From contig NZ_SMKY01000009.1 of assembly GCF_004349235.1 (NCBI RefSeq), positions 1 through 64,000 on the forward strand: a DNA stretch of 64,000 nt, written 5' to 3'. The DNA comes from Actinomadura darangshiensis. GTDB taxonomy: Bacteria; Actinomycetota; Actinomycetes; Streptosporangiales; Streptosporangiaceae. The stretch's first letter is position 1. The number at the start of each line of letters is the position of its first letter. Below the pieces are notes generated by a model. That model saw nothing but the letters and a program-made list of their open reading frames with translations. It had not been told where the DNA came from and searched no databases. Below are positions 45,422 through 64,000 of this stretch, piece after piece. The translations under genes were made by a program, and so were the position numbers.

Positions 45422-45493
45422 TCCGGCGTGGTGTAATCGGCAGCACATGGGTTTTTGGTACCTACAGTTCAGGTTCGAGTCCTGGCGCCGGAG
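45422..45493 (+). tRNA. tRNA-Gln (anticodon TTG)
   Basis: A 72-base cloverleaf. The acceptor TCCGGCG pairs with CGCCGGA, with a G discriminator. The anticodon stem TGGGT/ACCTA closes the seven-base loop TTTTGGT, so positions 34-36 are TTG. The T-arm has TTCGAGT. CCA is not encoded. It lies between the glycohydrolase gene and glmU. Confidence 0.93.
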
Positions 45494-45535
45494 CTGTCTG
45501 GAATGTTCCGAGGTGGGTCTCGGGTGGGCGGCGGG

Positions 45536-45563: not shown

Positions 45564-45647
45564 GCCCGTGTCGGGTTCGCCGTGGCGTGATGTCGCAGGT
45601 GGCGGGCCCGTGAAACGATCCCGTCCGCGATGCCGAGGAGCCTCCTT

Positions 45648-47093: not shown

Positions 47094-47113
47094 CGGGCGC
47101 CCGATGAGGACTG

Positions 47114-47130
47114 CCCCGCCCGAGGCGGGG
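47114..47130. terminator. Hairpin after glmU
   Basis: CCCCGCC and GGCGGGG pair perfectly around CGA, 20 bases after the glmU stop. There is no T-run, so it is either a weak terminator or a stabilising 3' structure. Confidence 0.4.
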
Positions 47131-47258
47131 TGCGGAGGACAGCGGCGTCTTCCGGAAACAACAGAGCAACCCGTGCGCCGGACCCTTTTGGTGCGCGGGG
47201 AGTGGGGACGACAACCCACATGTGCAGGCACAGTTCCATTGAGGGGGAGTTGTCAGAG

Positions 47259-48239: not shown

Positions 48240-48478
48240 GGTCCCGGCCGGGGTCGCGGCTGGGGCGTTGGCATTGGGCGTTGCCGTGTTGGGCTAGACT
48301 TGGGCAACCGCGTATGCCCCGGGTCGTTCAGTGCGGTGCCGGGACAGGGCCGTACTCCCCGGGCAACGCAAAGAATCTTCGAGGCGCCTGACGCATCGAG
48401 CATCGCCTGATTCGCTCTGTCCGCAGCGGACGTCCAGTGCCGGACGGCCGTGGATCGCAACAACGAGGAGTTTTCGCC

Positions 48479-49105
48479 GTGTCCGAGGTACGCATTGCCG
48501 CCGAGCCGCGCACCGAGTTCGGTAAGGGTGCCGCGCGGCGCACCCGCCGGGCCGGCAAGGTGCCCGCCGTCCTCTACGGTCACGGCACCGACCCGCAGCA
48601 CATCTCGCTGCCGGGGCACGCCCTGATGCTGGCGCTGAAGACGCCGAACGTGCTGCTGACCATCGAGGGCCTGTCCGACGGCTCGGAGCTGGCACTGCCG
48701 AAGGACGTCCAGCGCGACCCGGTGAAGGGGTTCCTGGAGCACGTCGACCTGCTGCTGGTGAAGCGCGGCGAGAAGGTCGTCGTCGACCTCCCGGTGAACG
48801 TCATCGGCGACATGGTTCCGGGCGGCCAGCTGGCGCAGTCGGTGGTGGAGATCTCCGTGGAGACGGAGGCGACGCACATCCCCGAGTCCGTCGACCTGGA
48901 CATCTCCGGCCTGGAGATCGACTCGCAGGTGCTGGCCAAGGACCTGAAGCTGCCCGCGGGGACGACGCTGGTCGCCGACGAGGACATCCTGATCGCGCAG
49001 ATCACCGACGCGACCGTCGCGACCGAGCCGGAGGAGACCGAGGAGGCCGAGCCGGCCGCCGAGGGCGAGGCCGCCGAGGGTGAGGGCGAGGCCGCCGCCG
49101 AGTGA
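48479..49105 (+). CDS. rplY: 50S ribosomal protein L25/general stress protein Ctc
   Basis: 208 residues from GTG 48479, eight bases after GAGGAG. It has the TL5/CTC architecture: an N-terminal 5S rRNA-binding L25 domain (EVRIAAEPRTEFGKGAARR, KVPAVLYGHG) and a C-terminal beta domain, then an acidic Glu/Ala tail of about 30 residues. It binds 5S rRNA in the large subunit. A perfect rho-independent terminator follows at 49157. The leader is about 180 bases with a possible -10, TAGACT, at 48295-48300. Confidence 0.95.
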   Translation: MSEVRIAAEPRTEFGKGAARRTRRAGKVPAVLYGHGTDPQHISLPGHALMLALKTPNVLLTIEGLSDGSELALPKDVQRDPVKGFLEHVDLLLVKRGEKVVVDLPVNVIGDMVPGGQLAQSVVEISVETEATHIPESVDLDISGLEIDSQVLAKDLKLPAGTTLVADEDILIAQITDATVATEPEETEEAEPAAEGEAAEGEGEAAAE

Positions 49106-49156
49106 CGGCGTGACGGTCGCGCGGCCGCGCCGGAGGGCGGGCCGCACGGTTCTTCC

Positions 49157-49200
49157 GCGGCCCCCGCAGGTGTGCGCACCGGCGGGGGCCGCGCCTTTTT
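49157..49200 (+). terminator. Rho-independent terminator between rplY and pth
   Basis: An 11-bp perfect stem, GCGGCCCCCGC (49157-49167) with GCGGGGGCCGC (49182-49192), followed by GCC and TTTTT. Confidence 0.9.
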
Positions 49201-49244
49201 GGTCCGCGTCGGTGTCGGCGTGTGCGTCGGTGTGAGGAGTGCGG

Positions 49245-49820
49245 GTGAGCGCGGATCTCTGGCTGGTGGTGGGGCTGGGCAACCCGGGCCCGTCGTATGC
49301 GAAGAACCGGCATAACGCGGGGTTCATGGTGCTGGACGTCCTGGCGGCGCGGGCCGGCGGGAGATTCAAGTCGCATCGGGCGCGTGCGGACGTCCTGGAG
49401 GGGCGGCTCGCGGGTGCGCGCGCGGTGCTGGCGAAGCCGCGTTCGTTCATGAACGAGTCGGGCGGCCCGGTGAAGGGGCTGCTGGATTTCTACAAGGTGC
49501 CGGTGGAGCGGCTCGTCGTCGTGCATGACGAGCTGGACATCCCATTCGGTGCGGTGCGGCTGAAGCAGGGCGGCGGCGACAACGGGCACAACGGGCTGCG
49601 CTCGGTCACGAAGTCGCTGGGCGCGAAGGACTATCTGCGGGTGCGGTTCGGGGTGGGCCGCCCGCCGGGCCGGATGGACGCGGCGGCGTTCGTGCTGAAG
49701 GACTTCTCCGCGACGGAGCGCAAGGACCTGGACCTTGAGGTGGACCGGTCGGCGGACGCGGTGGAGGCGCTGCTGTCCGGGGGGCTGGCCGCGGCGCAGA
49801 ACGAGTTCCACGCGGGGTGA
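49245..49820 (+). CDS. pth: Peptidyl-tRNA hydrolase
   Basis: 191 residues from GTG 49245, five bases after GAGGAG; GTG 49239 overlaps that site. It releases tRNA from prematurely dropped peptidyl-tRNA. The signatures are intact: [25 protein letters not shown] with catalytic His, [23 protein letters not shown] with the conserved Asp, and [11 protein letters not shown]. Size is normal. It is separated from rplY by a terminator. Confidence 0.96.
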
Positions 49821-50071: not shown

Positions 50072-51547
50072 ATGGCCGTCGTTGACAAGGTCCAGGCCAA
50101 GTCATCGACCCGCCATGACCACAAGCGCGAGTCGTCGCAGACCTGGAGCGGATCGTACCGGCGGTTCGCCGGGTTCCTCGACTTCACCAGCATGCTGGCC
50201 GCCGGCGTGATCGCGTTTGTGCTCCGCTTTCCGGGCGTCCCGAACGAGCTTGACGTGCCGTACATCGCGCTGACCGTCGTGCTCCCGATGCTCTGGCTCC
50301 CGACGCTGATGCTGTGCCGGGCGTACCAGCCGCGGTACGTCGGCGTCGGCTACGAGGAGTTCCACCGGGTGCTGCGCGCCGGGTTCATCCTGACGGCGGT
50401 GGTCGCGATCCTGGCGTACGCGACGAAGACCGACGTCGCGCGCGGCTACGTGGTGATGGCGCTGCCGCTCGGGACGTTCCTGGCCCTGGTGGCGCGGTAC
50501 CGGCTCCGCAAGTGGCTGCACCGCAAGCGGTGGCACGGCGAGTGCATGCGGCGGGTGGTCGCGGTGGGGCACCGCACGTCGGTGGCCGACCTGATCACGC
50601 TGCTGCAGAAGAAGCGGTACCACGGCATGGACATCGTGGGCGTGTGCCTGCCGCCGGCACTGGCGTCGGGCGACGACGCGGTCGCCGAGGTGGAGGGCGT
50701 CCCGGTGCTGGGCGACTTCGGCCAGGCGGCGGCCGCCGCCGACCGGATCGGCGCGGACTCGGTGGCCGTGCTTGCCTGCCCGGAGATGGACGGGGTGGCG
50801 CTGCGCCGGCTGGCGTGGCAGATCGAGCGCAACGACGTGGAGCTGGTCGTGGCGCCCGCGCTGATGGACGTGACCGGCCCGCGGATCTCGATCCGCCCGG
50901 TGTCGGGGCTGCCGCTGCTGCATGTGGAGCACCCGGAGCTGGACGGCGGCCGCAAGGTGCTGAAGGGCCTGGTGGACCGGGCCGTGGCCCTCGCCGGGAT
51001 CGTGGCGCTGAGCCCGCTGCTCGCGCTGATCGCGGTGCTGATCAAGTTCTCCGGCAACGGCCCGGTGCTGTTCCGGCAGACGCGGGTCGGGCGCGGCGGC
51101 CGCGAGTTCACCGTGCTGAAGTTCCGCACGATGGTCGCCGACGCCGAGGCGCGCCGGCTGGAGCTGCTGGCCGCCAACGACAACGACGGCGTGCTGTTCA
51201 AGATCCGGGAGGACCCGCGGATCACCCGGGTCGGCCGCCGGCTGCGCCGCTACTCGCTGGACGAGCTGCCGCAGCTGTTCAACGTGCTGCGCGGCGAGAT
51301 GTCGCTGGTCGGCCCGCGGCCGCCGCTGCCCGAGGAGGTCGCGCAGTACGGCGGCGACGTGTACCGGCGGCTGGTGGTGAAGCCGGGCCTGACGGGCCTC
51401 TGGCAGGTGAGCGGGCGCTCCGACCTGTCGTGGGAGGAGTCGGTGCGGCTCGACCTGCGCTATGTCGACAACTGGACACTGGCGCTCGACCTGCAGATCA
51501 TGTGGAAGACCTGGTCCGCGGTGGTCCGCGGCTCCGGCGCCTACTGA
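50072..51547 (+). CDS. Polyprenyl-phosphate sugar-1-phosphate transferase (WbaP/WcaJ type)
   Basis: 491 residues. Four N-terminal membrane helices (about 35-150) precede a Rossmann-like CoA-binding-type domain, then a fifth helix (about 305-327) and the bacterial sugar-transferase catalytic domain. The catalytic domain has GPVLFRQTRVGRGGREF, LKFRTM, DPRITRVGRRLRRYSLDELPQL, MSLVGPRPPLP, KPGLTGLWQVSGRSDLS and LDLRYVDNW. It starts repeat-unit assembly by moving a sugar 1-phosphate from a UDP-sugar to undecaprenyl phosphate at the inner membrane face. It is the first gene of the exopolysaccharide locus and is followed by cysQ on the same strand. Confidence 0.93.
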   Translation: MAVVDKVQAKSSTRHDHKRESSQTWSGSYRRFAGFLDFTSMLAAGVIAFVLRFPGVPNELDVPYIALTVVLPMLWLPTLMLCRAYQPRYVGVGYEEFHRVLRAGFILTAVVAILAYATKTDVARGYVVMALPLGTFLALVARYRLRKWLHRKRWHGECMRRVVAVGHRTSVADLITLLQKKRYHGMDIVGVCLPPALASGDDAVAEVEGVPVLGDFGQAAAAADRIGADSVAVLACPEMDGVALRRLAWQIERNDVELVVAPALMDVTGPRISIRPVSGLPLLHVEHPELDGGRKVLKGLVDRAVALAGIVALSPLLALIAVLIKFSGNGPVLFRQTRVGRGGREFTVLKFRTMVADAEARRLELLAANDNDGVLFKIREDPRITRVGRRLRRYSLDELPQLFNVLRGEMSLVGPRPPLPEEVAQYGGDVYRRLVVKPGLTGLWQVSGRSDLSWEESVRLDLRYVDNWTLALDLQIMWKTWSAVVRGSGAY

Positions 51548-51645
51548 CCCGGGGCCTGCTGACCGGGACCTGGTAGGGCGGTGCGGTGCCGGCGCATGAG
51601 AAAGTGGACCCCGCAGACCAGTCGAGTCGGGAATGTGATCTACGG

Positions 51646-52560
51646 ATGACCGAGGCAGGGGCGGCGGACGACCACGCGCTGGCGGCGGAGCTCGCCGGTA
51701 CGGCGGGCCGGCTGCTGCTGGGCGTGCGGGACGAGGTGGGCTTCGCGGACGCGCGCGCCCTGAAGGACACGGGCGACCTGCGGGCGCACGAGTACCTCAT
51801 GGCGGCGCTGGCGGAGCGCTGTCCCGGCGACGCCGTGCTGTCGGAGGAGGGCAGGTCGTCGGTCGCCGGGAAGCGGTCGAAGGGCGATGACCGCGCCCCG
51901 ACCCGCAACACGGCCGACGCGGAGCGGCTCACCGCCGGCCGGGTGTGGATCGTGGACCCGCTGGACGGCACCCGCGAGTTCTCCGAGGAGGGCCGCCGCG
52001 ACTGGGCCGTCCACGTGGCGCTGTGGGAGCGCGACGGCGACGGCGGCCGGCTGGCGGCCGGGGCGGTGGCGCTGCCCGCGCAGGGCCTGACGCTCCGCAC
52101 GGACGCGATCGGCGGCGCGGCCCTCGTCCGGACGGACGCGGGCGACCCCGACCCGGTCACGGCGGGGCGCAGGACGCCGCCGCGCGAGGTGCCGCTGCAC
52201 ATTCCGGCGCCGGACGCGGGCAAGCTGCGCATCGCCGTGAGCCGGACCCGTCCGCCCGAGTTCGTCACGCAGCTGGCCGGGAACCTGGATCTGGACGTGG
52301 AGCTGGTCCCGATCGGATCCGCCGGGGCGAAGATCTCCGCGGTGCTGCTCGGCGAGGTGGACGCCTACGTCCACGCGGGCGGCCAGTACGAGTGGGATTC
52401 GGCGGCCCCGGCGGCCGTCGCGCTCGGTGCGGGGGCGCACGCGTCCCGCGTCGACGGGGCGGCTTTGCGCTACAACCGGGAGGACCCCCGGCTACCGGAT
52501 ATCCTGGTGTGTCATCCCATGTCGGCGTCAACGCTGCTGACCGGCATCGGGGAAACGTGA
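51646..52560 (+). CDS. cysQ: 3'(2'),5'-bisphosphate nucleotidase (CysQ-like)
   Basis: About 304 residues from ATG 51646; GTG 51586 is also in frame. It belongs to the inositol-monophosphatase superfamily. The metal site is read from LSEEG, VDPLDGTREF and EWDSAAPAAVA. CysQ removes the 3'-phosphate of PAP, the product left after PAPS-dependent sulfation, and of PAPS itself. Its place between an exopolysaccharide transferase and cysDN, with a sulfotransferase 9 kb downstream, fits PAP recycling better than inositol metabolism. Confidence 0.88.
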   Translation: MTEAGAADDHALAAELAGTAGRLLLGVRDEVGFADARALKDTGDLRAHEYLMAALAERCPGDAVLSEEGRSSVAGKRSKGDDRAPTRNTADAERLTAGRVWIVDPLDGTREFSEEGRRDWAVHVALWERDGDGGRLAAGAVALPAQGLTLRTDAIGGAALVRTDAGDPDPVTAGRRTPPREVPLHIPAPDAGKLRIAVSRTRPPEFVTQLAGNLDLDVELVPIGSAGAKISAVLLGEVDAYVHAGGQYEWDSAAPAAVALGAGAHASRVDGAALRYNREDPRLPDILVCHPMSASTLLTGIGET

Positions 52561-52697
52561 GCGGCGCCTTGCCGTGACCGTCCGTCCTGGCCGGGAGTGA
52601 ATCACGGCCGGCCGGCGTTCGATCCGGTGGGAAGGCATGTGCCCGTCCCGTGCCACCGGTTGCATCTGCCAGAACAGCGTGGAGAGAGCCCCAGACC

Positions 52698-53615
52698 ATG
52701 CAGCGTCGCGATTACCTGCTGTCCCAGCTAGACGTCCTCGAAGCCGAGTCGATCCATATCTTCCGGGAGGTGGCGGCCGAGTTCGAACGGCCCGTGCTGC
52801 TGTTCTCGGGCGGTAAGGACAGCCTCGTGATGCTGCGGCTGGCGGAGAAGGCGTTCTGGCCCGCCCCGATCCCGTTCCCGGTGATGCACGTCGACACCGG
52901 CCACAACTTCCCCGAGGTGATCGAGTTCCGCGACCGGCGGGTCGGCGAGCTCGGCATCCGCCTGGTGGTGGCGTCGGTGCAGGCCGCGATCGACTCCGGC
53001 CGGGTGACCGAGCAGAAGGGGCGGCGCGCGTCGCGGAACCGGCTGCAGATCACCCCGCTGCTGGACGCGATCGAGGAGCACCGGTTCGACGCGGCGTTCG
53101 GCGGCGCGCGGCGGGACGAGGAGAAGGCCCGCGCCAAGGAGCGGGTGGTGTCGTTCCGGGACGAGTTCGGGCAGTGGGACCCGAAGAACCAGCGCCCGGA
53201 GCTGTGGAACCTGTTCAACACCCGCATCACGCAGGGCGAGCACGTCCGCGTGTTCCCGCTCTCCAACTGGACCGAGCTGGACATCTGGGACTACGTCCGC
53301 CGCGAGGGCCTGGCCCTGCCGTCGATCTACTACGCGCACACCCGCCGGGTGTTCGAGCGCGACGGCCTGCTCCTGGACGCCGAGACCGGGTTCGCCAACC
53401 GCGGCGACGACGAGCCGGAGTTCGAGGCCACGGTGAGGTACCGCACGGTCGGCGACGCGTCCTGCACGGGCGCGGTCAAGTCGGCGGCGGTGACGCTGGA
53501 CGAGGTGATCGAGGAGATCGCGGCCACGCGGATCACCGAGCGCGGCCAGACCCGCGCCGACGACCGCACGAGTGAGGCCGCGATGGAGGACCGCAAGAAG
53601 GAGGGCTACTTCTGA
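52698..53615 (+). CDS. cysD: Sulfate adenylyltransferase subunit 2
   Basis: 305 residues from ATG 52698. The PP-loop FSGGKDS (about 37-43) binds ATP. Further family markers are MHVDTGHNFPEVIEFRD, the GGARRDEEKARAKER segment, LSNWTELDIW and the C-terminal GDASCTGAVKSAA, and the protein ends in the typical EDRKKEGYF. With CysN it makes APS from sulfate and ATP. It overlaps cysN by one base (TGATG). PAPS reductase, its fold relative, lacks these GGARRDEEK and EGYF features. Confidence 0.96.
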   Translation: MQRRDYLLSQLDVLEAESIHIFREVAAEFERPVLLFSGGKDSLVMLRLAEKAFWPAPIPFPVMHVDTGHNFPEVIEFRDRRVGELGIRLVVASVQAAIDSGRVTEQKGRRASRNRLQITPLLDAIEEHRFDAAFGGARRDEEKARAKERVVSFRDEFGQWDPKNQRPELWNLFNTRITQGEHVRVFPLSNWTELDIWDYVRREGLALPSIYYAHTRRVFERDGLLLDAETGFANRGDDEPEFEATVRYRTVGDASCTGAVKSAAVTLDEVIEEIAATRITERGQTRADDRTSEAAMEDRKKEGYF

Positions 53616-54916
53616 TGGCCGGCGAGCTTGGCAAGACCGGGTCGACCAAGACGATGGACCTCCTGCGGTTCGCGACCGCCGGCAGCGTCGACGACGGCAA
53701 GTCGACGCTGATCGGCCGGCTGCTGTTCGACTCCAAGTCGATCTTCGAGGACCAGCTGGAGTCGGTGGAGAAGACCAGCGCCGACCGCGGCGAGGAGTAC
53801 ACGAACCTGGCGCTGCTGACCGACGGCCTGCGGGCCGAGCGGGAGCAGGGCATCACCATCGACGTCGCCTACCGGTACTTCGCGACGCCGCGCCGCAAGT
53901 TCATCATCGCCGACACCCCGGGGCACATCCAGTACACCCGGAACATGGTGACCGGCGCGTCCACCGCCGACCTGGCGATCATCCTGGTGGACGCCCGCAA
54001 GGGCATCCTGGAGCAGTCGCGCCGGCACGCGTTCCTCACCACGCTCCTGCAGGTCCCGCACCTGGTCGTGGCGGTCAACAAGATGGACCTGGTCGACTAC
54101 GACCGCGGCGTGTACGAGCAGATCGTGGACGAGTTCACCGCGTTCGCCTCGAAGCTGGACGTGACCGACCTGACGTTCGTGCCGATCTCGGCGCTGCACG
54201 GCGACAACGTCGTCGAGCGCAGCGGCAACATGCCCTGGTACGAGGGCTCCTCGCTGCTGCACCACCTGGAGCACGTGCACATCGCGTCCGACCGGAACCT
54301 GATCGACGTGCGGTTCCCGGTGCAGTACGTCGTCCGCCCGCACGCCTCCACCGACCCCGACCTGCACGACTACCGCGGCTACGCGGGCCAGGTCGCCGGC
54401 GGCGTGCTGAAGCCGGGGGACGAGGTCGTGCACCTGCCGTCCGGGCTGACCACCACGATCACCCACATCGACGGCCCGGCCGGGCCGGTCGCGGAGGCGT
54501 TCGCGCCGATGTCGGTGACGCTGCGCCTCGCCGACGACATCGACATCTCCCGCGGCGACATGATCGCCCGGCCGAACAACCGGCCCGAGGCCGCGCAGGA
54601 CATCGAGGCGATGGTGTGCTGGATGACGCCCGACCGCGCCCTCACGCCGCGCTCGAAGCTGGTGATCAAGCACACCACCCGCACCGCGAAGACGATGGTG
54701 AAGGCCCTGCACTACCGGCTGGACGTCAACACGCTGCACCGCGACGAGCAGGCCGGCAGCCTGGGCCTGAACGAGATCGGCCGCGTCTCCCTGCGCGTGA
54801 CGCAGCCCCTCTTCGTGGACGACTACGCCCGCAACCGGCTCACCGGCGGCTTCATCCTGATCGACGAGGCCACCAACAACACCGTCGCCGCCGGGATGAT
54901 CACCGGCACTCGCTGA
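53615..54916 (+). CDS. cysN: Sulfate adenylyltransferase subunit 1 (GTPase)
   Basis: 433 residues with a translation-factor-type GTPase domain: GSVDDGKSTLIGRLL (about 23-37), the DTPGHIQYTRNM switch, NKMDLVDY, and two beta-barrel domains after about 230. GTP hydrolysis drives APS formation by CysD. It ends after the barrels, without a fused APS kinase (CysC) domain, unlike NodQ/CysNC proteins. No separate cysC is in the window, so PAPS formation must depend on a kinase elsewhere. A strong hairpin separates it from the convergent wzz-like gene. Confidence 0.96.
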   Translation: MAGELGKTGSTKTMDLLRFATAGSVDDGKSTLIGRLLFDSKSIFEDQLESVEKTSADRGEEYTNLALLTDGLRAEREQGITIDVAYRYFATPRRKFIIADTPGHIQYTRNMVTGASTADLAIILVDARKGILEQSRRHAFLTTLLQVPHLVVAVNKMDLVDYDRGVYEQIVDEFTAFASKLDVTDLTFVPISALHGDNVVERSGNMPWYEGSSLLHHLEHVHIASDRNLIDVRFPVQYVVRPHASTDPDLHDYRGYAGQVAGGVLKPGDEVVHLPSGLTTTITHIDGPAGPVAEAFAPMSVTLRLADDIDISRGDMIARPNNRPEAAQDIEAMVCWMTPDRALTPRSKLVIKHTTRTAKTMVKALHYRLDVNTLHRDEQAGSLGLNEIGRVSLRVTQPLFVDDYARNRLTGGFILIDEATNNTVAAGMITGTR

Positions 54917-54923
54917 CCGGGCG

Positions 54924-54948
54924 GCGCGGGGCCCCACCGGCCCCGCGC
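54924..54948. terminator. Hairpin terminator between cysN and the convergent Wzz-like gene
   Basis: A perfect 10-bp stem, GCGCGGGGCC with GGCCCCGCGC, around CCACC, eight bases after the cysN stop. No T-run follows on either side. Confidence 0.6.
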
Positions 54949-55015
54949 TGGCCTTCCCGCAGCGTGCGGTCCCCAGGCCGGAGCCCCGCCCAGCCGGCGC
55001 GGCCCCGAGGCGCGG

Positions 55016-56881
55016 TCAGGGGCGGTTCAGGTTCCTGGCCGACTTGTCGGTCAGGGTGTCCGCGGCGGGGGACGCGGGGTCGTCGTCGGCGACGAAGGCG
55101 TCCAGGTCGATCTTGCCCAGCGTGATGGTCTGGTCGTTGGGCTTGTCCTGGTCGTCGGCGTCGGCGTCGTCCTGGGCGGGCCGCGCGTGCTTGCGGGGCC
55201 GTGACGCCGGCAGGTCCGCGTCGCCCGTCAGCGGGTCGGCGCGGCGCTTGCCGGGCTCCCGGGCGGCGGTCGCCGGGCTGCGGCGCGAGTCGGTGGCCGC
55301 CGCCGGCATCGCGGATCCGGGCCGGGCGGATGCCACGGGACCGGCGGGACCGGCCGAGCCGTCCCGGCGCCGCGGCGGCATGTCGCGGGGTTCGCGGGAC
55401 AGCGCGGGGGCGGGCACCGCGACGGCGGTCCCGTCCTGCTTCGGCAGGACGACCGCGCCGAGTACGGCCGCGCCCATCCGGTGGATGCGGTGGACGCCGT
55501 CGCGGATCTGCGCGTACCTGGTGCGCGGCGTCTCCACGACGATGAGGGCGGCGTCGGACAGGTCGGCGAGGGCCTGCGCGTCGGCGCCCAGCTCGGTGGA
55601 GGGCGCCTCCATCACGGTGAAGCGGGCCTTCTCCCGCAGCGAGCCGATGAGCCGGTCCATCTGCTCGCGCTGCAGCATCTCGGCGGCGAGGTCGGCGTCG
55701 GCGCCCGGGGTGATGGTGGCGAGCGAGGGCAGCGCGTGGTTGCGGCGCACCACGTCGCGCAGCTCGACCCGGCCGAGCAGGAGCTCCGACAGCCCGGCGC
55801 CGCGGTGCAGGCCGAGCAGGTCGGCCGCCAGCGGCGACTGGAGGTTGGCGCACACCAGCAGGACGTTGGAGCCGGTGCGGGCGAGCGCGGCGGCGAGGTT
55901 GACCGACACGATGCTGGACCCGGGGCCGGGCGCGGCGCCGGTGACGAGGATGACGTGGTTGCCGTGGCCGAGCGTCGCGGTCAGCTCGTGCGCGAGCTCG
56001 TGGAAGTTCTGCCCGCTGCGGCTGCGCGCGGGCAGCAGGCCGAGCTCCTCCTTGCCGCGCCGCTGCGGGATGGACAGCAGGACGGGCAGGTCGAGGACGC
56101 GTTCGACGTCGCCGGCGACCCGGACGCGGCGGTCGACCCGGTCGTACATGATCGCCAGGATGATGCCGAGCAGCAGCCCGCCCGCGAGGCCGCTCGGCAG
56201 GAACTTGGCCGGGTTCGGACTGGCCGGGCCGGGCGGCGGCGACGCGCTCGTGATGATCTCACCGCCGTCCACGTTGGCGATCGCCACCTGCAGGTCGGTG
56301 AGCTTGTTGCTGAAGGCGGTCAGCTGGGCGCCCAGCAGCTTGCGCTGCGTCGCGCCCGCGGTCACCATCTTGGTGCGGACGTCGTTGACCTGCTTCTCCA
56401 GCACGCCCGCCTGGTTCTGCAGCCGCTTGACCGCCTTGTCGTTGCGGTTCTGGAGGTAGGACTCGGCGAAGGCCTGGGCCCCGGCGCGCGCCTTGGCCGC
56501 ACTCGACGCCGTCCACTCGATGGCGAGGACGGAGGAGTCGGGCGGCACCGTCACCTGGACCCGGTGGCCGAGTTCCAGCGGCGATTCGGTGGACCCGATC
56601 CGCTTCTGCACGAGGGCCGTCACCTCGGTCGAGCGGATCCGCTGGGCCTCGGTCTCCAGGCTGATGTCGGTGCCGTTCTTGCCGGTCTGGCGGGACTCGG
56701 GGTCGGTGTCGGTCACCTGCACGACGGCCGTGGACACATACGTCTTCGGCAGCAGGAACAGCCCGGCGACGGCGATCGCCAGCCCCAGCAGGGCCCCGGC
56801 GACGACCACCCACCACCGCCGCCGCAGCATGGCCGCGTACTCCGCCAGCTCCGTGGAGTCGGCTCTTGCCGTGGAGTCCAT
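55016..56881 (-). CDS. Wzz-type chain-length protein with degenerate BY-kinase domain
   Basis: 621 residues from ATG 56881 (GAGAGG upstream). A Wzz domain begins with a first membrane helix (about 25-46), continues through a coiled outer region and ends with a second helix (about 225-250). A CpsD/BY-kinase-like P-loop domain follows (about 290-470), then a disordered Pro/Arg/Asp-rich tail. The P-loop reads GAAPGPGSSIV, with Ser in place of the Walker A lysine. Walker A' reads VCANLQSP where VDADLRRP is usual, and Walker B is MEAPS rather than DTPP. The tail has no tyrosine cluster. So it should set chain length or assemble the export complex without kinase activity. Confidence 0.87.
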   Translation of the reverse strand: MDSTARADSTELAEYAAMLRRRWWVVVAGALLGLAIAVAGLFLLPKTYVSTAVVQVTDTDPESRQTGKNGTDISLETEAQRIRSTEVTALVQKRIGSTESPLELGHRVQVTVPPDSSVLAIEWTASSAAKARAGAQAFAESYLQNRNDKAVKRLQNQAGVLEKQVNDVRTKMVTAGATQRKLLGAQLTAFSNKLTDLQVAIANVDGGEIITSASPPPGPASPNPAKFLPSGLAGGLLLGIILAIMYDRVDRRVRVAGDVERVLDLPVLLSIPQRRGKEELGLLPARSRSGQNFHELAHELTATLGHGNHVILVTGAAPGPGSSIVSVNLAAALARTGSNVLLVCANLQSPLAADLLGLHRGAGLSELLLGRVELRDVVRRNHALPSLATITPGADADLAAEMLQREQMDRLIGSLREKARFTVMEAPSTELGADAQALADLSDAALIVVETPRTRYAQIRDGVHRIHRMGAAVLGAVVLPKQDGTAVAVPAPALSREPRDMPPRRRDGSAGPAGPVASARPGSAMPAAATDSRRSPATAAREPGKRRADPLTGDADLPASRPRKHARPAQDDADADDQDKPNDQTITLGKIDLDAFVADDDPASPAADTLTDKSARNLNRP

Positions 56882-57049
56882 CAGCCGGGTGTTCCTCTCG
56901 CAGCCGTCGAATCGCCGTGCACGCCGTGCGCGGCGCACCGGTCCACTCCCCGTCGGAGTTCGCTACAAGATACCTTGACCCATTCATGGTGAACCGCTGA
57001 ACGGTGAGGGACTTGCGCCCCGCCCGCGGGGCCGGTGGGGCGGTGGCGG

Positions 57050-58147
57050 TCAGCGCTTGCCGAGCAGGCCCGTCGCGTTGTCCCAGCCGGTGTGGCCGAG
57101 CAGCCGTCCCTGGTCGGCCATGGCGGCCGGCACGTTGAAGCCGTAGCGCTGCTGCGGCGCCCGCCCGCCCGGTCTGCGGTCGAACGCCTGGCAGCCGACG
57201 AGGGACGTCTGCTCGCCCTGGTTGACGTAGAAGCCGTCCGCCCCGTTCGCGCTCGCACCGACGTCCGCGGAGCTCGCGGTGTCGGCCACGCAGCCGGTGA
57301 ACACGTTCCGGTCGGACTCGATGAACCAGCCGTGGCCGCCGGTGTCCTGGGACTCGCAGCCGACGAACTTGTTGCGCTCCCCGTTGACGTGCCAGCCGTA
57401 GTCGCGGCAGTACCAGGCCTTGCACGCCTGGAAGAAGTTGTTGGCGCCGCCGATGCCGTCGGACCCGGCGATGGCGGGGCCGACGTAGAAGCCGGCGGTG
57501 CTGCCGGTGCGCCGCCGGGTCGTGGCCTCGCAGGCCGTCCACCAGCTGTCGGGGGCCTCCACGCGGAAGCCGTACCGGCCCGCCTGGCGGACCCGGACGC
57601 GGCTGGTCACGCACGCCTGGGTGTCCTTGCCGCGGTAGGCGATGCCGTCCAGCACCGGCTGGTAGACGGCGAGGTTGTCGAGCCGGCAGACCGAGTCCGG
57701 TTCGCCCTTGTAGAACTTCCCGTTGCCGGTGATGTCGAGGTCGATGCCGATCCCGGCCTTGTCGGCGCAGTCGAGCACCAGGTCGGAGACGGACACCCCG
57801 TCGACCGACCGGCCCCGGCCGATCGCGATCATCGTGTCCAGGGAGCGCGCCGCGCGCAGCCGGGTGCGCTGCCCGGCGCCGCGGATCGCGCAGCCGGGCA
57901 CCGGGACGACGGGCTCGGTGAGGCGGTACTCGCCCTGCCCCAGCAGGACGGCGGTGGCGCCGTCCTCGATGGCCTGCTGGATGGAGCCGCCCGGCGGGAC
58001 GTAGGTCCACGGCCCCTGCTGCTGCGCGGCGGCCGGGGACGGCCCTGACGAGAGCAGCGCCTCCGCCGCGATGCCCGCGGTGACGCCCGCGGCGGCGAAG
58101 GCCCCGCCGCCCAGCACCGAGCGCCTCTGATACCAGCGTTCTTCCAA
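57050..58147 (-). CDS. Tat-exported right-handed beta-helix protein
   Basis: 365 residues from TTG 58147, eight bases after GAGGAG. The N-terminus YQRRSVLGGGAFAAAG is a twin-arginine signal, followed by cleavage near PAAAQ. The body is a parallel beta-helix with pectate-lyase-type repeats: each rung has a C-x or N-x-F-x-G-C pattern (for example NKFVGCES, NVFTGCVAD, TSLVGCQAF) and PPGGSIQQAIEDG opens the fold. Many cysteines are spread along one face. Such folds bind or cleave acidic polysaccharides, so it may process the polymer made by this locus. Catalytic residues cannot be named. Confidence 0.82.
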   Translation of the reverse strand: MEERWYQRRSVLGGGAFAAAGVTAGIAAEALLSSGPSPAAAQQQGPWTYVPPGGSIQQAIEDGATAVLLGQGEYRLTEPVVPVPGCAIRGAGQRTRLRAARSLDTMIAIGRGRSVDGVSVSDLVLDCADKAGIGIDLDITGNGKFYKGEPDSVCRLDNLAVYQPVLDGIAYRGKDTQACVTSRVRVRQAGRYGFRVEAPDSWWTACEATTRRRTGSTAGFYVGPAIAGSDGIGGANNFFQACKAWYCRDYGWHVNGERNKFVGCESQDTGGHGWFIESDRNVFTGCVADTASSADVGASANGADGFYVNQGEQTSLVGCQAFDRRPGGRAPQQRYGFNVPAAMADQGRLLGHTGWDNATGLLGKR

Positions 58148-58351
58148 CTGCTCTACTCCTCGATCGCGATGGCCTTCTGCGCAGTTCTGATCCGGCGCGG
58201 GGCACCGGCGACCGTCCAGTCAGATGCCCGGACGGCAACCCCCGTGGAGCCCGGCGCCGCCGGCGAGGAGCCCGAAGGTGCGGGCGCGGCGGAGGTCGGG
58301 GAGGCCGCGCGGTCCCCGGGCACGGCAGCGTAGGCTCGGCCTCCGAGTGTA

Positions 58352-58364
58352 AGGTTCGTAACCT
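58352..58364. repeat. Palindrome AGGTTCGTAACCT upstream of the Wzy-like gene
   Basis: A perfect 5-bp inverted repeat with a 3-base centre, overlapping a possible -10 TAAGGT (58350-58355). It lies in the 289-base space between the divergent beta-helix and Wzy-like genes. Apart from it and the ribosome sites I see nothing else there. Confidence 0.35.
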
Positions 58365-58436
58365 CTTGCCGGTCGGGAACGGGTGGACTCCGGTCAGCCG
58401 GACGGGGTTTCCGGGAAGGTGAGGGAGGGCGAGAGG

Positions 58437-59804
58437 GTGGTCACGACCGCGCCGCGGCGTCCGGCCGCGCCGCCGACGGCGTCCGGGCCGGGTTCGCCGT
58501 ACCCGCTCGCCGACGACGACGAGGAGGCCGCGCCCCCGGCCGCGCCGTCCCGCAGGGAGCTCCCCGCCTGGCCGCTGACCCTGCTGTTCGTCGGGTTCCC
58601 CGTCTGGTGGCTGCTCGGCCTCGGCGCGTTCGCGGCGCCCATCGCCGCGTCGGTGATGGCGATGCACATGCTGCTGCGCGGCGGCGTGCGGGTGCCCCGG
58701 CGGTTCGGGATCTGGGTCCTGTTCCTGGTGTGGGTGATCGCCGCCGGAACGCAGATCGACTCGTTCGGCCGCGCCGTCGGCTTCGTGTTCACCTACATGA
58801 ACTACGCGGCCGCCAGCGTCGTGTTCGTCTACGTCTACAACTGCCCCCGGGACCGGCTGCCGATCCGCCGCGTGCTCGGGATGGTGGTCGTCTTCTGGGT
58901 GTGGGTGGTGATCGGCGGCTTCCTCGGCGTGCTGCTGCCCAAGATGGGGATGACGACGCCGTTCGAGCGCGTCCTGCCCGGCGCGATCAAGGGCAACGAG
59001 TACGTGCACGACCTCGTGCATCCGCAGTTCGCCGAGATCCAGCAGCCGTGGGGAGCGCCGCGCCCCTACAACAGGCCCCGCGCGCCCTTCCCCTACACCA
59101 ATGCCTGGGGCAGCCATTTCGCGCTGCTGTTCCCGTTCGTGGTGCTGTACGTGACGCAGGCGCGGTCCACCGTGCGGATGATGCTCATCGGCCTGATGTG
59201 CGCCTCGCTGGTCCCGGCGTTCGCGACGCTGAACCGCGGGATGTTCCTGGCGATCGTGGTCGGCGTCCTGTACACGGCGATCCGCTACCTGAGCCGCGGG
59301 CACGTCCGCTGGCCGGCGATGGTCATCGCGCTGATGGTGGTCGGCGGCATCGCGGCGCTGCTGTCCGGGGTGGGCGCGGGAATCGACAGCCGCACCGAGT
59401 ACAGTTCGACCACCAACGACCGCCTCGGCCTCTATACCGAGTCCTTCGTGCGGACGCTCGAATCCCCGGTGCTGGGATACGGCGCGCCGCGCCCCTCCAA
59501 TACCTACGTGGTGTCCGTGGGAACCCAGGGCGAGTTCTGGCATCTGATGTTCTCGTACGGTTTCCCGGGGCTGCTCTTCTTCTGCGGATGGATATGGCTG
59601 CTCGCGATGCGGACCCGGAGGGTCCTGCCGGATTCGCTGCTGTGGCTGCACGCGGTGCTGGTCATGGCCTCGTTCATGCTCTTCTACTACTCACTCGACC
59701 AGACCGAGCTGGTGCTGGTCTTCCTGGCGGCCGCGCTCATCCTGCGCGGGTCCGCCGGCGGGACGCCGGGAGGTGCGGATGACCGCGGCGCCGCCGCACG
59801 CTGA
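58437..59804 (+). CDS. O-antigen polymerase/ligase-like membrane protein (Wzy/WaaL family)
   Basis: About 455 residues from GTG 58437, seven bases after GGGAGGG; GTG 58383 and 58440 are also in frame. After a Pro/Ala-rich cytoplasmic start, about eleven membrane helices follow. The large outer loop between helices has APRPYNRPRAPFPYTNAWG and, near the C-terminus, NDRLGLYTESFVRTLESPVLGYG, the pattern of the Wzy_C/O-antigen ligase family. It would polymerise lipid-linked repeat units outside the membrane. It overlaps the flippase gene by 26 bases, so the two are coupled. Confidence 0.85.
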   Translation: MVTTAPRRPAAPPTASGPGSPYPLADDDEEAAPPAAPSRRELPAWPLTLLFVGFPVWWLLGLGAFAAPIAASVMAMHMLLRGGVRVPRRFGIWVLFLVWVIAAGTQIDSFGRAVGFVFTYMNYAAASVVFVYVYNCPRDRLPIRRVLGMVVVFWVWVVIGGFLGVLLPKMGMTTPFERVLPGAIKGNEYVHDLVHPQFAEIQQPWGAPRPYNRPRAPFPYTNAWGSHFALLFPFVVLYVTQARSTVRMMLIGLMCASLVPAFATLNRGMFLAIVVGVLYTAIRYLSRGHVRWPAMVIALMVVGGIAALLSGVGAGIDSRTEYSSTTNDRLGLYTESFVRTLESPVLGYGAPRPSNTYVVSVGTQGEFWHLMFSYGFPGLLFFCGWIWLLAMRTRRVLPDSLLWLHAVLVMASFMLFYYSLDQTELVLVFLAAALILRGSAGGTPGGADDRGAAAR

Positions 59805-61401
59805 CCAGAGGGCGGGGGAGGGCGGCCGGCGGCACGGCCGCGACCTGCGGGAGTTCGCCCGCGGCGGCGCCATCGGCCTGGTCAGCTCCGTGATCGCGGC
59901 GGCCTCGGGGTTCCTGCTGACCGTCGTCGTCGCCCGGACCCTGGGCCCCGCCGAGGCGGGCGTGTTCTTCGTCGTGGTCGCGCTGTTCACGATCGTCGCC
60001 GAGATCGCCGAGCTGGGCGCCGACACCGGGCTGGTGCGGACGACGGCGCGGCTGCGCGCCCTCGGCCGGGGGGACGAGCTGCGCCGGCTCATGGCCGTCG
60101 CCCACCTCCCCGTGGTCGTCGTCGGCGTGCTGTGCTCGGTCGGCGCGTACCTGGCGGCGCCCTGGGTCGCCGACCGGTTCATCGACCCCGCGCAGGCCGG
60201 CACCGCCGTCACGCTGCTGCGGATCGCCGCGCCGTTCCTCGGCCTCATGGCCCTCACCCGGGTGGCGCTCGGCGGGACCCGCGGACTCGGCAGCGTCACC
60301 GCCTACTCGCTGATCAACAACGTCCTGCTGCCGGGCACCCGGCCGCTGCTGGTCGGCCTGGTGTTCGTGTTCGGCATGGGCGCGGCCGGCGTCATGGTCG
60401 CCTGGACGGCCCCGGTCGCGGCGTCGTTCATCGCGGCCGCCCTGGTGCTGTGGCGGATGATGTCCCGCGCCGGGCACGACCCGGACGGCGGGCCGCTTCC
60501 GGCCACCGTGCCGCGCGGGTCGCCCGGACGGGAGTTCTGGGCGTTCTCCGGTCCGCGCGGCTTGGCCGCCGCCGTCGAGATCGCGCTCGTGTGGGCGAAC
60601 GTCCCGCTGGTCGCGATGCTGGTGTCCAGCGAGGAGGCGGGCGTCTACGCCACCGCCAACCGGTTCGTCAGCACCGGGACGCTGGTGCTGCAGGCGGCCC
60701 GGATCGCGATCGCCCCGCAGGTCGCCGCGATGCTCGCGCGCGACGAGCGGGACCGGGCCGGGCACCTGAACTCGCTGGCCACCCGGTGGGTCGTCCTCGC
60801 GTCCTGGCCCATCTACCTGGTGCTGGCCTGCTTCGGCCCGTTCCTGCTGGCGATGTTCGGCGAGGGCTTCACCGGCGGCGCCGTCGCGCTGGCGGTGCTG
60901 GCCGGCGCGATGCTCATCGCGCTCAGCGCCGGCAACGTCCAGACGGTGCTGCTCATGGGCGGCAAGAGCTCCTGGAGCCTCGGCAACAAGGCCGTCGCGC
61001 TGGCGGTGAACATCGGGCTGACGCTGCTGCTCGTCCCGCCGTTCGGCATCGCGGGCGCGGCGGCGGCATGGGCGGTGGCGATGCTGATCGACACGGTCGC
61101 GGCGGCGCTGCAGGTCCGCTACCTGCTCGGGCTGCGGCTGGACGTGCGGCGCGTCGCCGTCACCGGGCTGTGGGCGCTGGTGTGGTTCGGCCTGACCGGG
61201 GTCGCGCTGCGGGCCCTGTTCGGGACCTCGGCCCTGGTCTTCGCCGGCTACGCCGTCGTCGCCTGCGCCGGATACGCCGCTACGCTGTGGCGCCTGCGGC
61301 ACTCGCTCGGCGGCGCCGAGTTCCTCGGCGCCGTGCGGAACAGGGGCGCCCGGGACGACGCGGGCGCCGGGCCAGGGGCCCGACAAGGGGAGAGCGCATG
61401 A
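59779..61401 (+). CDS. Wzx-type polysaccharide flippase (MOP superfamily)
   Basis: 540 residues from ATG 59779 (GGGAGG five bases upstream), overlapping the Wzy-like gene. Fourteen or so hydrophobic segments, with the N-terminal ARGGAIGLVSSVIAAASGFLL and VVARTLGPAEAGVFF, mark the polysaccharide-biosynthesis branch of the MOP superfamily. It should move the undecaprenyl-linked repeat unit across the membrane. It overlaps the sulfotransferase gene by four bases (ATGA), so polymerisation, flipping and sulfation genes are translationally linked. Confidence 0.9.
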   Translation: MTAAPPHADQRAGEGGRRHGRDLREFARGGAIGLVSSVIAAASGFLLTVVVARTLGPAEAGVFFVVVALFTIVAEIAELGADTGLVRTTARLRALGRGDELRRLMAVAHLPVVVVGVLCSVGAYLAAPWVADRFIDPAQAGTAVTLLRIAAPFLGLMALTRVALGGTRGLGSVTAYSLINNVLLPGTRPLLVGLVFVFGMGAAGVMVAWTAPVAASFIAAALVLWRMMSRAGHDPDGGPLPATVPRGSPGREFWAFSGPRGLAAAVEIALVWANVPLVAMLVSSEEAGVYATANRFVSTGTLVLQAARIAIAPQVAAMLARDERDRAGHLNSLATRWVVLASWPIYLVLACFGPFLLAMFGEGFTGGAVALAVLAGAMLIALSAGNVQTVLLMGGKSSWSLGNKAVALAVNIGLTLLLVPPFGIAGAAAAWAVAMLIDTVAAALQVRYLLGLRLDVRRVAVTGLWALVWFGLTGVALRALFGTSALVFAGYAVVACAGYAATLWRLRHSLGGAEFLGAVRNRGARDDAGAGPGARQGESA

Positions 61402-62297
61402 CCAAGGGGCTTGTCAGCGGTCTCAAGGACCGCTCGCCGCGGGCCGTCAAGGACATGGCCAATTCCGTCACCCGCGCCTATGGCAAGCGCACCGCGGAAC
61501 AGCGGCATCTGCCCGACTTCATGGTCATCGGCACGAAACGGGGCGGGACCACCTCGCTGTGGAACTACCTCATCCAGAATCCGCTGGTCATGCCGATGTT
61601 CCCGGCGTCGCGGGGGCTGAAAAGCCCCTGGTACTTCTACGTGAACTACGCGAAAGGCGACACCTGGTACCGCTCGCATTTCGCTACCGAGAGTGAACTC
61701 GACCGGATCGAGGAGAAGGCCGGGACGCGCCCGCTGACCGGTGAGGCGTGCCCGTACTACATGTACCACCCGCGGGCCGCGGAGCGGATCCACGAGCGGA
61801 TGCCCGGCCTCAAGGTGGTCGCCGTGCTGCGCGACCCGGTCAAGCGCGCCTATTCCCACTACTGGGAGGCCGTCGGCAAGGGCGTGGAGGACCTCGGGTT
61901 CGAGGAGGCGCTCGCCGCCGAGCCCGAGCGGCTCCGCGGGGAGCTGGAGCGGATGCGCGCCGAACCGCTCTACTACAGCGAGGCGCACGACTTCCACAGC
62001 TACCGCGACCGCGGCGTCTACAAGCCGCAGCTGGAGCAGTGGGGCGAGTACTACCCGCGGGAGAACTTCCTGGTCATGTCGGCGGAGGAGCTGTACGCCG
62101 ACGAGCAGGCCGCGCTCGACCGCGTGTGCGGCTTCCTCGGGCTGCCGGCGCACCGGCTGGCGAGCGCCGAGCGGCACAACCACCTGCCGGCCCCGCCGAT
62201 GGACGCGGCGACCAGGGCGGAGCTGACCGAGTTCTACCGGCCGCACAATCGGGAGCTGTTCGAGTGGCTCGGCGAAGATTTCGGGTGGCCGAGCTGA
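61398..62297 (+). CDS. PAPS-dependent carbohydrate sulfotransferase-like protein
   Basis: 299 residues. The 5'-phosphosulfate-binding loop is TKRGGTTSL (46-54), and the 3'-phosphate-binding segment is VVAVLRDPVKRAYSHYW (about 140-156), both hallmark regions of cytosolic and Golgi-type sulfotransferases. It has no signal peptide, so it should act on lipid-linked units or nucleotide-activated precursors inside the cell. Its coupling to the flippase and the Wzy-like gene points to the exopolysaccharide as acceptor. cysD, cysN and cysQ at the other end of the locus fit its donor supply and by-product removal. Confidence 0.9.
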   Translation: MTKGLVSGLKDRSPRAVKDMANSVTRAYGKRTAEQRHLPDFMVIGTKRGGTTSLWNYLIQNPLVMPMFPASRGLKSPWYFYVNYAKGDTWYRSHFATESELDRIEEKAGTRPLTGEACPYYMYHPRAAERIHERMPGLKVVAVLRDPVKRAYSHYWEAVGKGVEDLGFEEALAAEPERLRGELERMRAEPLYYSEAHDFHSYRDRGVYKPQLEQWGEYYPRENFLVMSAEELYADEQAALDRVCGFLGLPAHRLASAERHNHLPAPPMDAATRAELTEFYRPHNRELFEWLGEDFGWPS

Positions 62298-62410: not shown

Positions 62411-62498
62411 AACTTCATTCTCATGCGTGGCGCCTGTGCGGCGGGCCGTTCGGCCTGCTCAGCGCCATCCCTCCCGATCAAATCCCCCGGGGGAGTTC

Positions 62499-64000
62499 AT
62501 GCCAGATCGATTGCGTTTCCTGCGCGGTGTCCGATACCGCAGGAGCGCCGTGACCATAGTCGCGACCGTGGCCGTGCTGACCGGCACGGTTCTCGCGACC
62601 GTCTCCGCCCAGGAGGGCGGCAGCAAGTCGGCGGCGCTCAGCGCGGCAACCGTGCAGCGGGACGGGAAGACCTCCACCCGGGCCGCGGCCTCCTGCTGGG
62701 CCATCAAGCAGCAGTTCCCCTCCAGCGCGGATGGCGTCTACTGGCTGCAGACGCCGAAGCTCATCGCGCCCGACCAGTTCTACTGCGACATGACGACCGA
62801 CGGCGGCGGCTGGGTCCTCGTCGGCCGCGGCCGGCAGGGCTGGAACTTCGCCTTCCCCGGCCAGAACGGCATCTCCGCGGTGCGCGACCACCCGACGGGG
62901 ACCGCCGCGTTCACGCCCGCCGCGCTGCCGGCCGGCACCATCGACGGGCTGCTGAACGGCCACACGACCGACGACCTCCCCGACGGGGTCCGGGTCCGGC
63001 GCGCGACGAACGTCGAGGGCAGCAAGTGGCAGGAGATGCGCTGGAAGTTCAAGAAGTCCGCGCCCTGGTCCTGGTCGTTCGACGCCGATCCGGCCAACCC
63101 GCTGACGTCGGTCTCCTTCGACGGCACCAGCTACAGCGGCGGTGACACCCGGCTCGTCTCCAAGGACAGCGTGCTCCGTCCGACCAACGGGTTCTACACC
63201 TACGAGACCAAGCAGAACAGCTGGCAGCGCGGCTTCGCCTACCGGTCGTACGTGACGGCCGGCAGCAACAGCCCGACCAGCTACCTGTGGCGGTCCGGCG
63301 TCGCGGGCGGCGACACCATCCCGTTCAGCCAGGTGTGGATCCGGCCGAAGCTGACCGACGTGGAGTACCCGGCGATCCCCGACTCCGGCACCCCGGCCTC
63401 CGCCGCGGAGCCGGTGATGGGCAACAAGACCTCCAGCGGGCCGTGGGGCGTCACCGGCGTCGTCAGCGGCGGGACCGGCGAGCGGCACCTCGAGGTGCAG
63501 GGCATGGCCGTGTCCGGCACCACCATGTACGTCGGCGGCGAGTTCAAGAACGTCCAGAAGGGCGCCTCCGGCGAGAAGATCGACCAGCCCTACCTGGCCG
63601 CCTTCGACACCGCGACCGGCGAGTGGAAGTCGTCGTTCCGGCCCAAGCTGAACGGCGGCGTCTGGGACCTGCAGGTCGCGGGCGGCAAGCTCATCGTCGC
63701 GGGCGAGTTCACCAAGGCCAACGACGCCGCGAACACGGCGGGCCTGGCCGCGCTCGACCTGACGACCGGCAAGAACGCGTCCGGATGGACGGCCAGCGTC
63801 TCCGATTCCAGCGGCGGCGCCGCCTGGGCCCGCGCCCTCGACGTGCAGGGCGACTGGCTGTACGTAGGCGGCAACTTCACCCGCATCTGGGGCGGCAACC
63901 CGCTCAGCGCCAAGGTCTCGGTGGGACGCACGGCGCGCATCCGGGTCTCCGACGGCAAGCCCGACGGGACGTGGAAGCCGAACCTCAACGGCTCGGTCAT
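62499..64000 (+). CDS. Secreted fibrinogen-like domain protein with propeller-type repeats, partial
   Basis: An open frame from ATG 62499 (GGGAG upstream) runs past the right edge; 500 residues are visible. A signal sequence with a basic start (about 1-38) is cleaved near VSAQ. A fibrinogen C-terminal-type domain follows: SCWAIKQQFPSSADGVYWL, then FYCDMTTDGGGWVLVGRG near 95, with two cysteines spaced as in the family. From about residue 330 come repeats of the type LDVQGDWLYVGGNFT and GGKLIVAGEFTKAND, as in delta-60 or beta-propeller surface proteins. It is probably a surface adhesin or glycan-binding protein. No catalytic motif is visible. Confidence 0.85.
   Translation, partial: MPDRLRFLRGVRYRRSAVTIVATVAVLTGTVLATVSAQEGGSKSAALSAATVQRDGKTSTRAAASCWAIKQQFPSSADGVYWLQTPKLIAPDQFYCDMTTDGGGWVLVGRGRQGWNFAFPGQNGISAVRDHPTGTAAFTPAALPAGTIDGLLNGHTTDDLPDGVRVRRATNVEGSKWQEMRWKFKKSAPWSWSFDADPANPLTSVSFDGTSYSGGDTRLVSKDSVLRPTNGFYTYETKQNSWQRGFAYRSYVTAGSNSPTSYLWRSGVAGGDTIPFSQVWIRPKLTDVEYPAIPDSGTPASAAEPVMGNKTSSGPWGVTGVVSGGTGERHLEVQGMAVSGTTMYVGGEFKNVQKGASGEKIDQPYLAAFDTATGEWKSSFRPKLNGGVWDLQVAGGKLIVAGEFTKANDAANTAGLAALDLTTGKNASGWTASVSDSSGGAAWARALDVQGDWLYVGGNFTRIWGGNPLSAKVSVGRTARIRVSDGKPDGTWKPNLNGSV

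Follow-up and report, generated by a model that had tools for sequence, protein, structure and literature searches.

An exchangeable Wzx/Wzy cassette within a conserved sulfate-activation frame points to a sulfated extracellular polysaccharide in Actinomadura darangshiensis

The first 64 kb (64,000 nucleotides; hereafter, the window) of a 74,189-base contig (NZ_SMKY01000009.1) from the 9.9 Mb genome of Actinomadura darangshiensis end within a locus that combines polysaccharide-assembly genes of the Wzx/Wzy type with sulfate-activation genes and a predicted sulfotransferase. All positions given here are those of the contig, and genes were identified by Pfam matches, except for rplY and pth, which were named by eye from the translation. 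The left anchor of the locus consists of glmU, prs, rplY and pth (45630..49820, plus strand; Pfam matches for glmU and prs), and this gene order beside cysQDN is also seen in relatives. A single plus-strand row follows, encoding a WbaP-type initiating sugar-phosphate transferase (50072..51547; Bac_transf, 228 bits, and CoA_binding_3), a CysQ-type protein that would act as a phosphatase of 3'-phosphoadenosine 5'-phosphate (PAP) (51586..52560; Inositol_P, 93 bits), the small subunit of ATP sulfurylase, CysD (52650..53615, with a possible start at 52695; PAPS_reduct, 160 bits), and its GTPase subunit CysN (53615..54916; GTP_EFTU, 147 bits; no APS_kinase/CysC domain). The next two genes are on the minus strand and encode a Wzz-like co-polymerase with a C-terminal P-loop nucleoside triphosphatase part (55016..56938; Wzz, 38 bits; CbiA/AAA_31 below the cut-off) and a right-handed beta-helix protein that the initial annotation of this DNA had not listed (57050..58147; Beta_helix, 26.7 bits). 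The plus strand then resumes with genes for a Wzy-like polymerase (58383..59804; Wzy_C, 36 bits), a Wzx-like flippase (59773..61401, with a possible start at 59779; Polysacc_synt, 31 bits) and the predicted PAPS-dependent sulfotransferase (61398..62297; Sulfotransfer_3/1, PF00685/PF13469, 44 and 40 bits; PAPS, 3'-phosphoadenosine 5'-phosphosulfate).

The initial annotation had described the 12.3 kb from wbaP to the sulfotransferase gene as one compact locus, and the gene identities it gave are confirmed by Pfam, as is the overlap of wzy, wzx and the sulfotransferase gene: the first two overlap by 26–32 bp, depending on the start codon, and the last two by 4 bp, the sulfotransferase ATG at 61398 standing behind GGGGAG. 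A compact single operon is ruled out by the minus-strand location of the Wzz-like and beta-helix genes, the former of which had been listed among its members. The locus also extends farther to the right, to about position 73.8 kb of a contig 74.2 kb long. Immediately to the right of the sulfotransferase gene, the plus strand encodes a secreted protein of 814 aa whose fibrinogen-like and propeller matches are weak (62427-64871, of which the window holds 62427..64000). Beyond the window, all on the minus strand, are genes for an APH-like kinase (64953-66587), a GT28-type/GT2 fusion (66977-68458; L011:6977-8458), an Alg14-like protein (69709-70173), TauE (70237-71208), SatC (71304-72824) and a methyltransferase (72937-73782). 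The kinase assignment comes from sub-cut-off matches of homologues to APH and fructosamine kinase and from the invariant motifs HGDW.PWN and DWE. With a WbaP-type initiator, with Wzx, Wzy and Wzz each above the Pfam cut-off, and with further glycosyltransferases (the GT28-type/GT2 fusion and the Alg14-like gene) past the window end, the locus has the gene complement of a Wzx/Wzy-dependent polysaccharide locus.

Sulfate activation, which the initial annotation had considered to be built into the 12.3 kb segment, is only in part encoded there. CysDN accounts for adenosine 5'-phosphosulfate (APS), but Pfam detects no APS kinase in the segment, which rules out self-sufficiency for PAPS; because CysN lacks a kinase domain, the segment reaches APS only. 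The single PF01583 match in the genome (71385-71843) lies 9 kb past the sulfotransferase gene, in SatC (APS_kinase, 191 bits), outside the window. Among solved structures (PDB), SatC best matches 3cr8, the two-domain APS kinase of Thiobacillus denitrificans, reportedly described by Gay in 2009, for which no link to polysaccharide sulfation is known. The kinase domain is intact, and the P-loop GLSGSGKST is present in 52 of 53 SatC proteins, whereas the second histidine of HxxH, which we take to be the sulfurylase active-site motif, is found in only one of the 53 (G204), the aligned site reading HRAQ in 3cr8 and HRKQ here. Thus, the sulfurylase half of SatC is probably inactive, and the protein would be an APS kinase dependent on CysDN. 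CysH, whose gene neighbors one for a sulfite reductase-like protein on a different contig, carries motifs that presumably mark APS reductases, so that PAPS is probably not needed for cysteine. It is likely that cysQDN and satC contribute to cysteine synthesis and supply other sulfotransferases as well. The genome contains a second cysDN pair (C144:32000-42000; L013), beside genes that resemble inositol phosphatase, small sulfotransferase, KASIII and DegT-type aminotransferase genes (these neighbors were named by eye from translations), and this region resembles a gene cluster that would make a sulfated small molecule.

Among named genomes, the sulfotransferase query matched 11 loci, at 66–82% identity, from Actinomadura, Nonomuraea, Actinoallomurus, Rhizohabitans, Planomonospora, Planobispora and Sinosporangium. 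Within the flanks examined, all 11 have genes for Wzz, Wzy and Wzx as well as for the propeller protein and GT2; the kinase and Alg14 were found in 10, GH26 in 8, wbaP in 6, cysDN in 3 and satC in 1. The beta-helix gene is shared with one of these loci (L021) and was not found in the other 10. The GT28-type and GT2 domains are fused in A. darangshiensis, the two halves matching at separate places in most named relatives; G103 matches the fused query strongly.

The sulfotransferase, whose best named match is from Actinomadura luteofluorescens (89%), retains PAPS-binding residues that are invariant in both alignments made, A1 and A2 (G45, R48, G50, T52, S53 and R145); S153 is invariant in A1 and conserved at 90% or more in A2. 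The fold of the enzyme most resembles that of the heparan sulfate 3-O/N-sulfotransferases (3-OST/NDST) and is much nearer to glycosaminoglycan sulfotransferases than to SULT, Stf1/Stf9 or curacin-type enzymes, and a simple hydropathy window reveals no transmembrane-like stretch. Given these features, and given that wzy and wzx accompany the sulfotransferase gene in all 11 named relatives, sulfation of the polymer appears to be the best reading. The enzyme could instead act on a small molecule, lipid or protein, with its placement after wzy and wzx incidental, and other targets of sulfation do seem to exist in this genome, where five other genes carry PF13469 matches and the cysDN pair at C144 adjoins a small sulfotransferase-like gene; considering the fold, the 4-bp overlap with wzx and the constant company of wzy and wzx, we find this quite improbable.

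The sulfotransferase is widespread in the order: among 249 genomes, 213 match it at E 1e-20 or better. By identity, the matches fall into two groups, 11 at 66% or higher, the source genome included, and the others, among the matches listed, at 47% or lower. From the 213, we sampled 60 genomes with high sulfotransferase scores; sulfotransferase positions refer to the matches listed, with further sulfotransferases missing for 17 of the 60. One genome, G244, entered with one of six listed sulfotransferases; it has seven matches, three of them listed close together on each of two contigs (C136 and C118). All 60 genomes encode APS kinase and CysD, mostly as single copies (56 and 51 genomes, respectively), and in 50 the two genes are within 40 kb of each other. 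In 45 of these 50, a listed homologous sulfotransferase gene lies between them, and across the sample one is within 30 kb of the APS kinase gene in 50 genomes and within 30 kb of cysD in 49. Three of the five frames without a listed sulfotransferase (G092, G100 and G182) belong to the 17 genomes with incomplete sulfotransferase records, and reading of the locus shows that the G182 frame does contain one. In most of the frames read, pth-wbaP-cysQ-cysD-cysN stand on one side and tauE, satC and the methyltransferase gene on the other, with the variable genes, the cassette, in between; wbaP is matched in 15 of 17 full frames, the exceptions being G208 and G248, the stretch read in the latter ending at cysQ. 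This search for conserved co-occurrence across actinomycete genomes bears out the linkage seen in the window: its recurrence among relatives shows that it did not arise by chance alone. The activation genes are, however, a shared frame and not a private part of one polymer locus, as had been assumed.

Within the frame, the cassette comes in several types. Type 1 is that of the window; type 2 (wzy, kinase, sulfotransferase, wzz and wzx) is distantly related to it; type 2b contains a sulfotransferase gene and almost no other matches to our queries, with c10-like and propeller-like pieces in G200. Type 3, found in nine congeners, comprises rml genes, Wzy, Wzz, Wzx, GT4 enzymes and LamG/PKD/propeller proteins, a gene content known mostly from G081 and G113. 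No sulfotransferase was detected in type 3, either by Pfam on 18 open reading frames, a subset of those in two of the nine genomes, and reading of ten further translations, or by a PF13469 search of all nine genomes, which gave no match within the frames and covered this sulfotransferase family only; a similar pattern of gene lengths agrees with this. That every frame contains a sulfotransferase is thereby ruled out.

We mapped the cassette types onto a SatC tree of 53 genomes, 48 of which carry a cassette label, the five unlabelled rows being uncounted; the tree was built quickly, some of its branches are long, and 20 of the 50 inner branches are drawn open. Cassette type changes 13 times on it, against a minimum of 3 and a mean of 18.7 for shuffled labels, none of 200 shuffles being as low, so that cassette type is partly inherited and often switched. 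The well-supported branches alone force fewer switches, 6, 3, 3 and 4 for types 2, 3, 2b and 1, respectively, and sister pairs with unlike cassettes include G200/G227 (support 100), G118/G095 (92) and G000/G216 (86). The simplest reading of these patterns is exchange of whole cassettes between fixed flanks.

Of 394 genomes of the class, 67 contain the cassette kinase; 28 of these fall outside the order, and seven of the eight outside loci that were read carry a related sulfotransferase. An APS kinase gene lies within 20 kb of the cassette kinase in only 2 of these 28 (G275 and G598), and G379 gave no APS kinase match; a class-wide linkage of the kinase/sulfotransferase loci to APS kinase is therefore ruled out, and the frame chiefly characterizes this order. 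In G288, from another family of the class, locus L173 combines wbaP-cysQ-cysD-cysN with the kinase, wzz, GT2, wzy and two sulfotransferase-like matches, so that at least one case of this linkage exists beyond the order.

The closest published counterpart is the wps-1 cluster of Actinoplanes missouriensis, for which, in the part of the article available, a sulfated polysaccharide is predicted without chemistry (PMC13390465). As described there, wps-1 encodes a heparan sulfate-type sulfotransferase (WpsH), Wzx, Wzy, Wzz, a kinase-like protein, GH26 and GT2 (PMC13390465). The A. darangshiensis locus shares with this set Wzz, Wzy, the kinase-like protein, the sulfotransferase type, Wzx and GT2, and a gene of the APS kinase family is near both, AMIS_7390 next to wps-1 in the published description and satC here. 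It differs from the cluster as published in the wzy-wzx-sulfotransferase order and in the propeller and beta-helix proteins; GH26, present in 8 of the 11 named relatives, is not matched in the window plus L011, and GT26, DUF4262 and a second sulfotransferase are absent from the locus open reading frames scanned with Pfam. Two Micromonospora loci (L079 and L170) have wzz, wzy, kinase, sulfotransferase, wzx and GH26 in the wps-1 order as given in the article, and the L170 sulfotransferase matches one from Micromonospora sp. WMMA2032 at 100% identity. The likeness to wps-1 is one of gene order and domains, the A. missouriensis sequences themselves being outside the comparison; WpsH is not named among the 120 matches listed in either homologue search.

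Two other parallels have chemical support. Synechan of Synechocystis is a sulfated exopolysaccharide made by a Wzx/Wzy route with sulfotransferases, although the xss genes are cyanobacterial and plasmid-borne, with two sulfotransferases, and the term PAPS is absent from the text (PMC8205485). In Vibrio sp. KMM 8419, the capsule cluster includes cysC, cysN, cysD and sulfotransferases, and the polymer is sulfated, but export is by an ABC transporter (Kps) and cysCND are second copies, whereas SatC is the only APS kinase here; in the sections available, the authors state that no public genome has a similar locus and treat PAPS genes with sulfotransferases in a polysaccharide cluster as a hallmark of sulfated polymers (PMC11641403). 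Literature searches on sulfated polysaccharides in Actinomadura or Streptomyces gave nothing relevant by title (the hits looked like reviews or unrelated work), and the two titles obtained on APS kinase in actinomycete development looked unrelated. The sole study found on actinomycete sulfated polysaccharides predicts them only, judging from the text available (PMC13390465). This kind of polymer has thus been proposed recently; new here are the conserved frame, the exchangeable cassettes and a testable account of a published phenotype.

Taken together, the gene content and its conservation make it likely that the locus directs Wzx/Wzy-dependent synthesis of a sulfated extracellular polysaccharide, with PAPS supplied by SatC and with an exchangeable cassette. 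WbaP would load the first sugar phosphate onto the lipid carrier, and the GT2, GT28-type and Alg14-like proteins would extend the repeat unit. CysDN would make APS and the kinase half of SatC would convert it to PAPS, which the cytoplasmic sulfotransferase would use on an acceptor sugar of the lipid-linked repeat unit, before flipping by Wzx; Wzy with Wzz would then polymerize the units, and CysQ would remove PAP. The activation genes would form a fixed frame on which the rest of metabolism also draws, the cassette being exchanged as a block between lineages. The finding of the initial annotation is real, and its principal inference is likely right once corrected on three points: the gene for the PAPS step is beyond the window, the activation genes make up a shared frame and not a private part, and this frame survives without a sulfotransferase.

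Several observations weigh against this scheme. The column that in 3-OST holds the glutamate of the EPHFF-type motif, presumably the catalytic residue, holds serine or glycine here, next to an invariant Lys75, and we do not class the enzyme as a 3-OST for this reason. In the nine type 3 congeners, the frame encloses a polysaccharide cassette in which no sulfotransferase was detected, a situation that the initial annotation had named as counting against its proposal and that is thus found in part; the frame, then, does not require sulfation. Five genomes of other genera (G017, G047, G053, G056 and G067) have a reduced frame, with an interior of about 6 kb and no sulfotransferase of this family. 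All 20 genomes searched among the 36 without the sulfotransferase retain APS kinase, so PAPS has other uses; these genomes carry other PF13469 matches elsewhere, and in the 16 with flanks read the frame is present in 14 and absent from the stretch read in G037 and G076. In six genomes (G015, G027, G122, G182, G193 and G228), the window-type sulfotransferase lies apart from cysDN and satC, the activation genes adjoining another, more distant sulfotransferase (the G027 frame is split across contigs). The rarity of linkage outside the order points the same way, as does the published observation that AMIS_7390 is not activated together with wps-1 at day 3 and is put under different control, as far as the available text goes (PMC13390465).

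Most of these facts would be expected if housekeeping sulfate genes simply adjoined a polysaccharide hot spot without functional dependence, the sulfotransferase traveling with the cassette, a view that does not deny sulfation of the polymer. We regard this as unlikely: the interval between cysD and the APS kinase gene, which holds a sulfotransferase gene in 45 of 50 genomes, makes up only some 0.3% of a genome of 8 Mb, and wbaP stands in a row with cysQDN in nearly all full frames. Deletion of AMIS_7390 also harms sporangia as does deletion of the sulfotransferase gene, a severe defect that the authors call unexpected; they connect this enzyme with sulfur amino acids and nowhere use the term PAPS (PMC13390465). 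The conserved frame suggests that AMIS_7390 may supply PAPS to WpsH and that its deletion phenotype may thus reflect PAPS supply.

The polymer is most likely destined for the spore or hyphal surface. A broader proposal, which we advance tentatively and with some reservation, is that actinomycetes of this order carry a capsule-like exchange locus flanked by PAPS-cycle genes, cysQ-cysD-cysN to the left and the gene for a kinase-only SatC to the right, with swapped, mostly sulfating cassettes, producing a developmental glycan of the spore or sporangium, with the AMIS_7390 phenotype caused by lack of PAPS; our confidence in it is lowered because AMIS_7390 is not activated with wps-1. A variant compatible with the sulfated-polysaccharide reading is that the glycan, instead of being free, is attached to the wall or spore sheath. 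All 11 named loci encode a large secreted fibrinogen-like/propeller protein (for example, L021:11035-13494), and deletion of wps-1 affects sporangia while macroscopic growth is unchanged, according to the text available (PMC13390465), but no anchoring gene was identified and the model of the propeller protein (11 rows; mean predicted local distance difference test score, pLDDT, 57) is too weak for functional assignment, so that we consider anchoring doubtful.

Two further features flank or interrupt the locus. A tRNA-Gln gene (45422-45494) lies just left of glmU, and a TnpB/IS605-type gene (67769-69745; L011:7769-9745; OrfB_IS605 and Cas12f1-like TNB matches) sits between the GT28-type/GT2 and Alg14-like genes, on the strand opposite to both.

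The frame points to dozens of candidate producers of such polymers, with the congeners that lack the sulfotransferase as a natural control, and offers an explanation of the published AMIS_7390 phenotype. If the proposed pathway is correct, a bacterial sulfotransferase that combines a heparan sulfate-type fold with a role in a Wzx/Wzy pathway would be practically useful, and the exchange of cassettes between fixed flanks would extend the principle of capsule loci to spore-forming soil bacteria.
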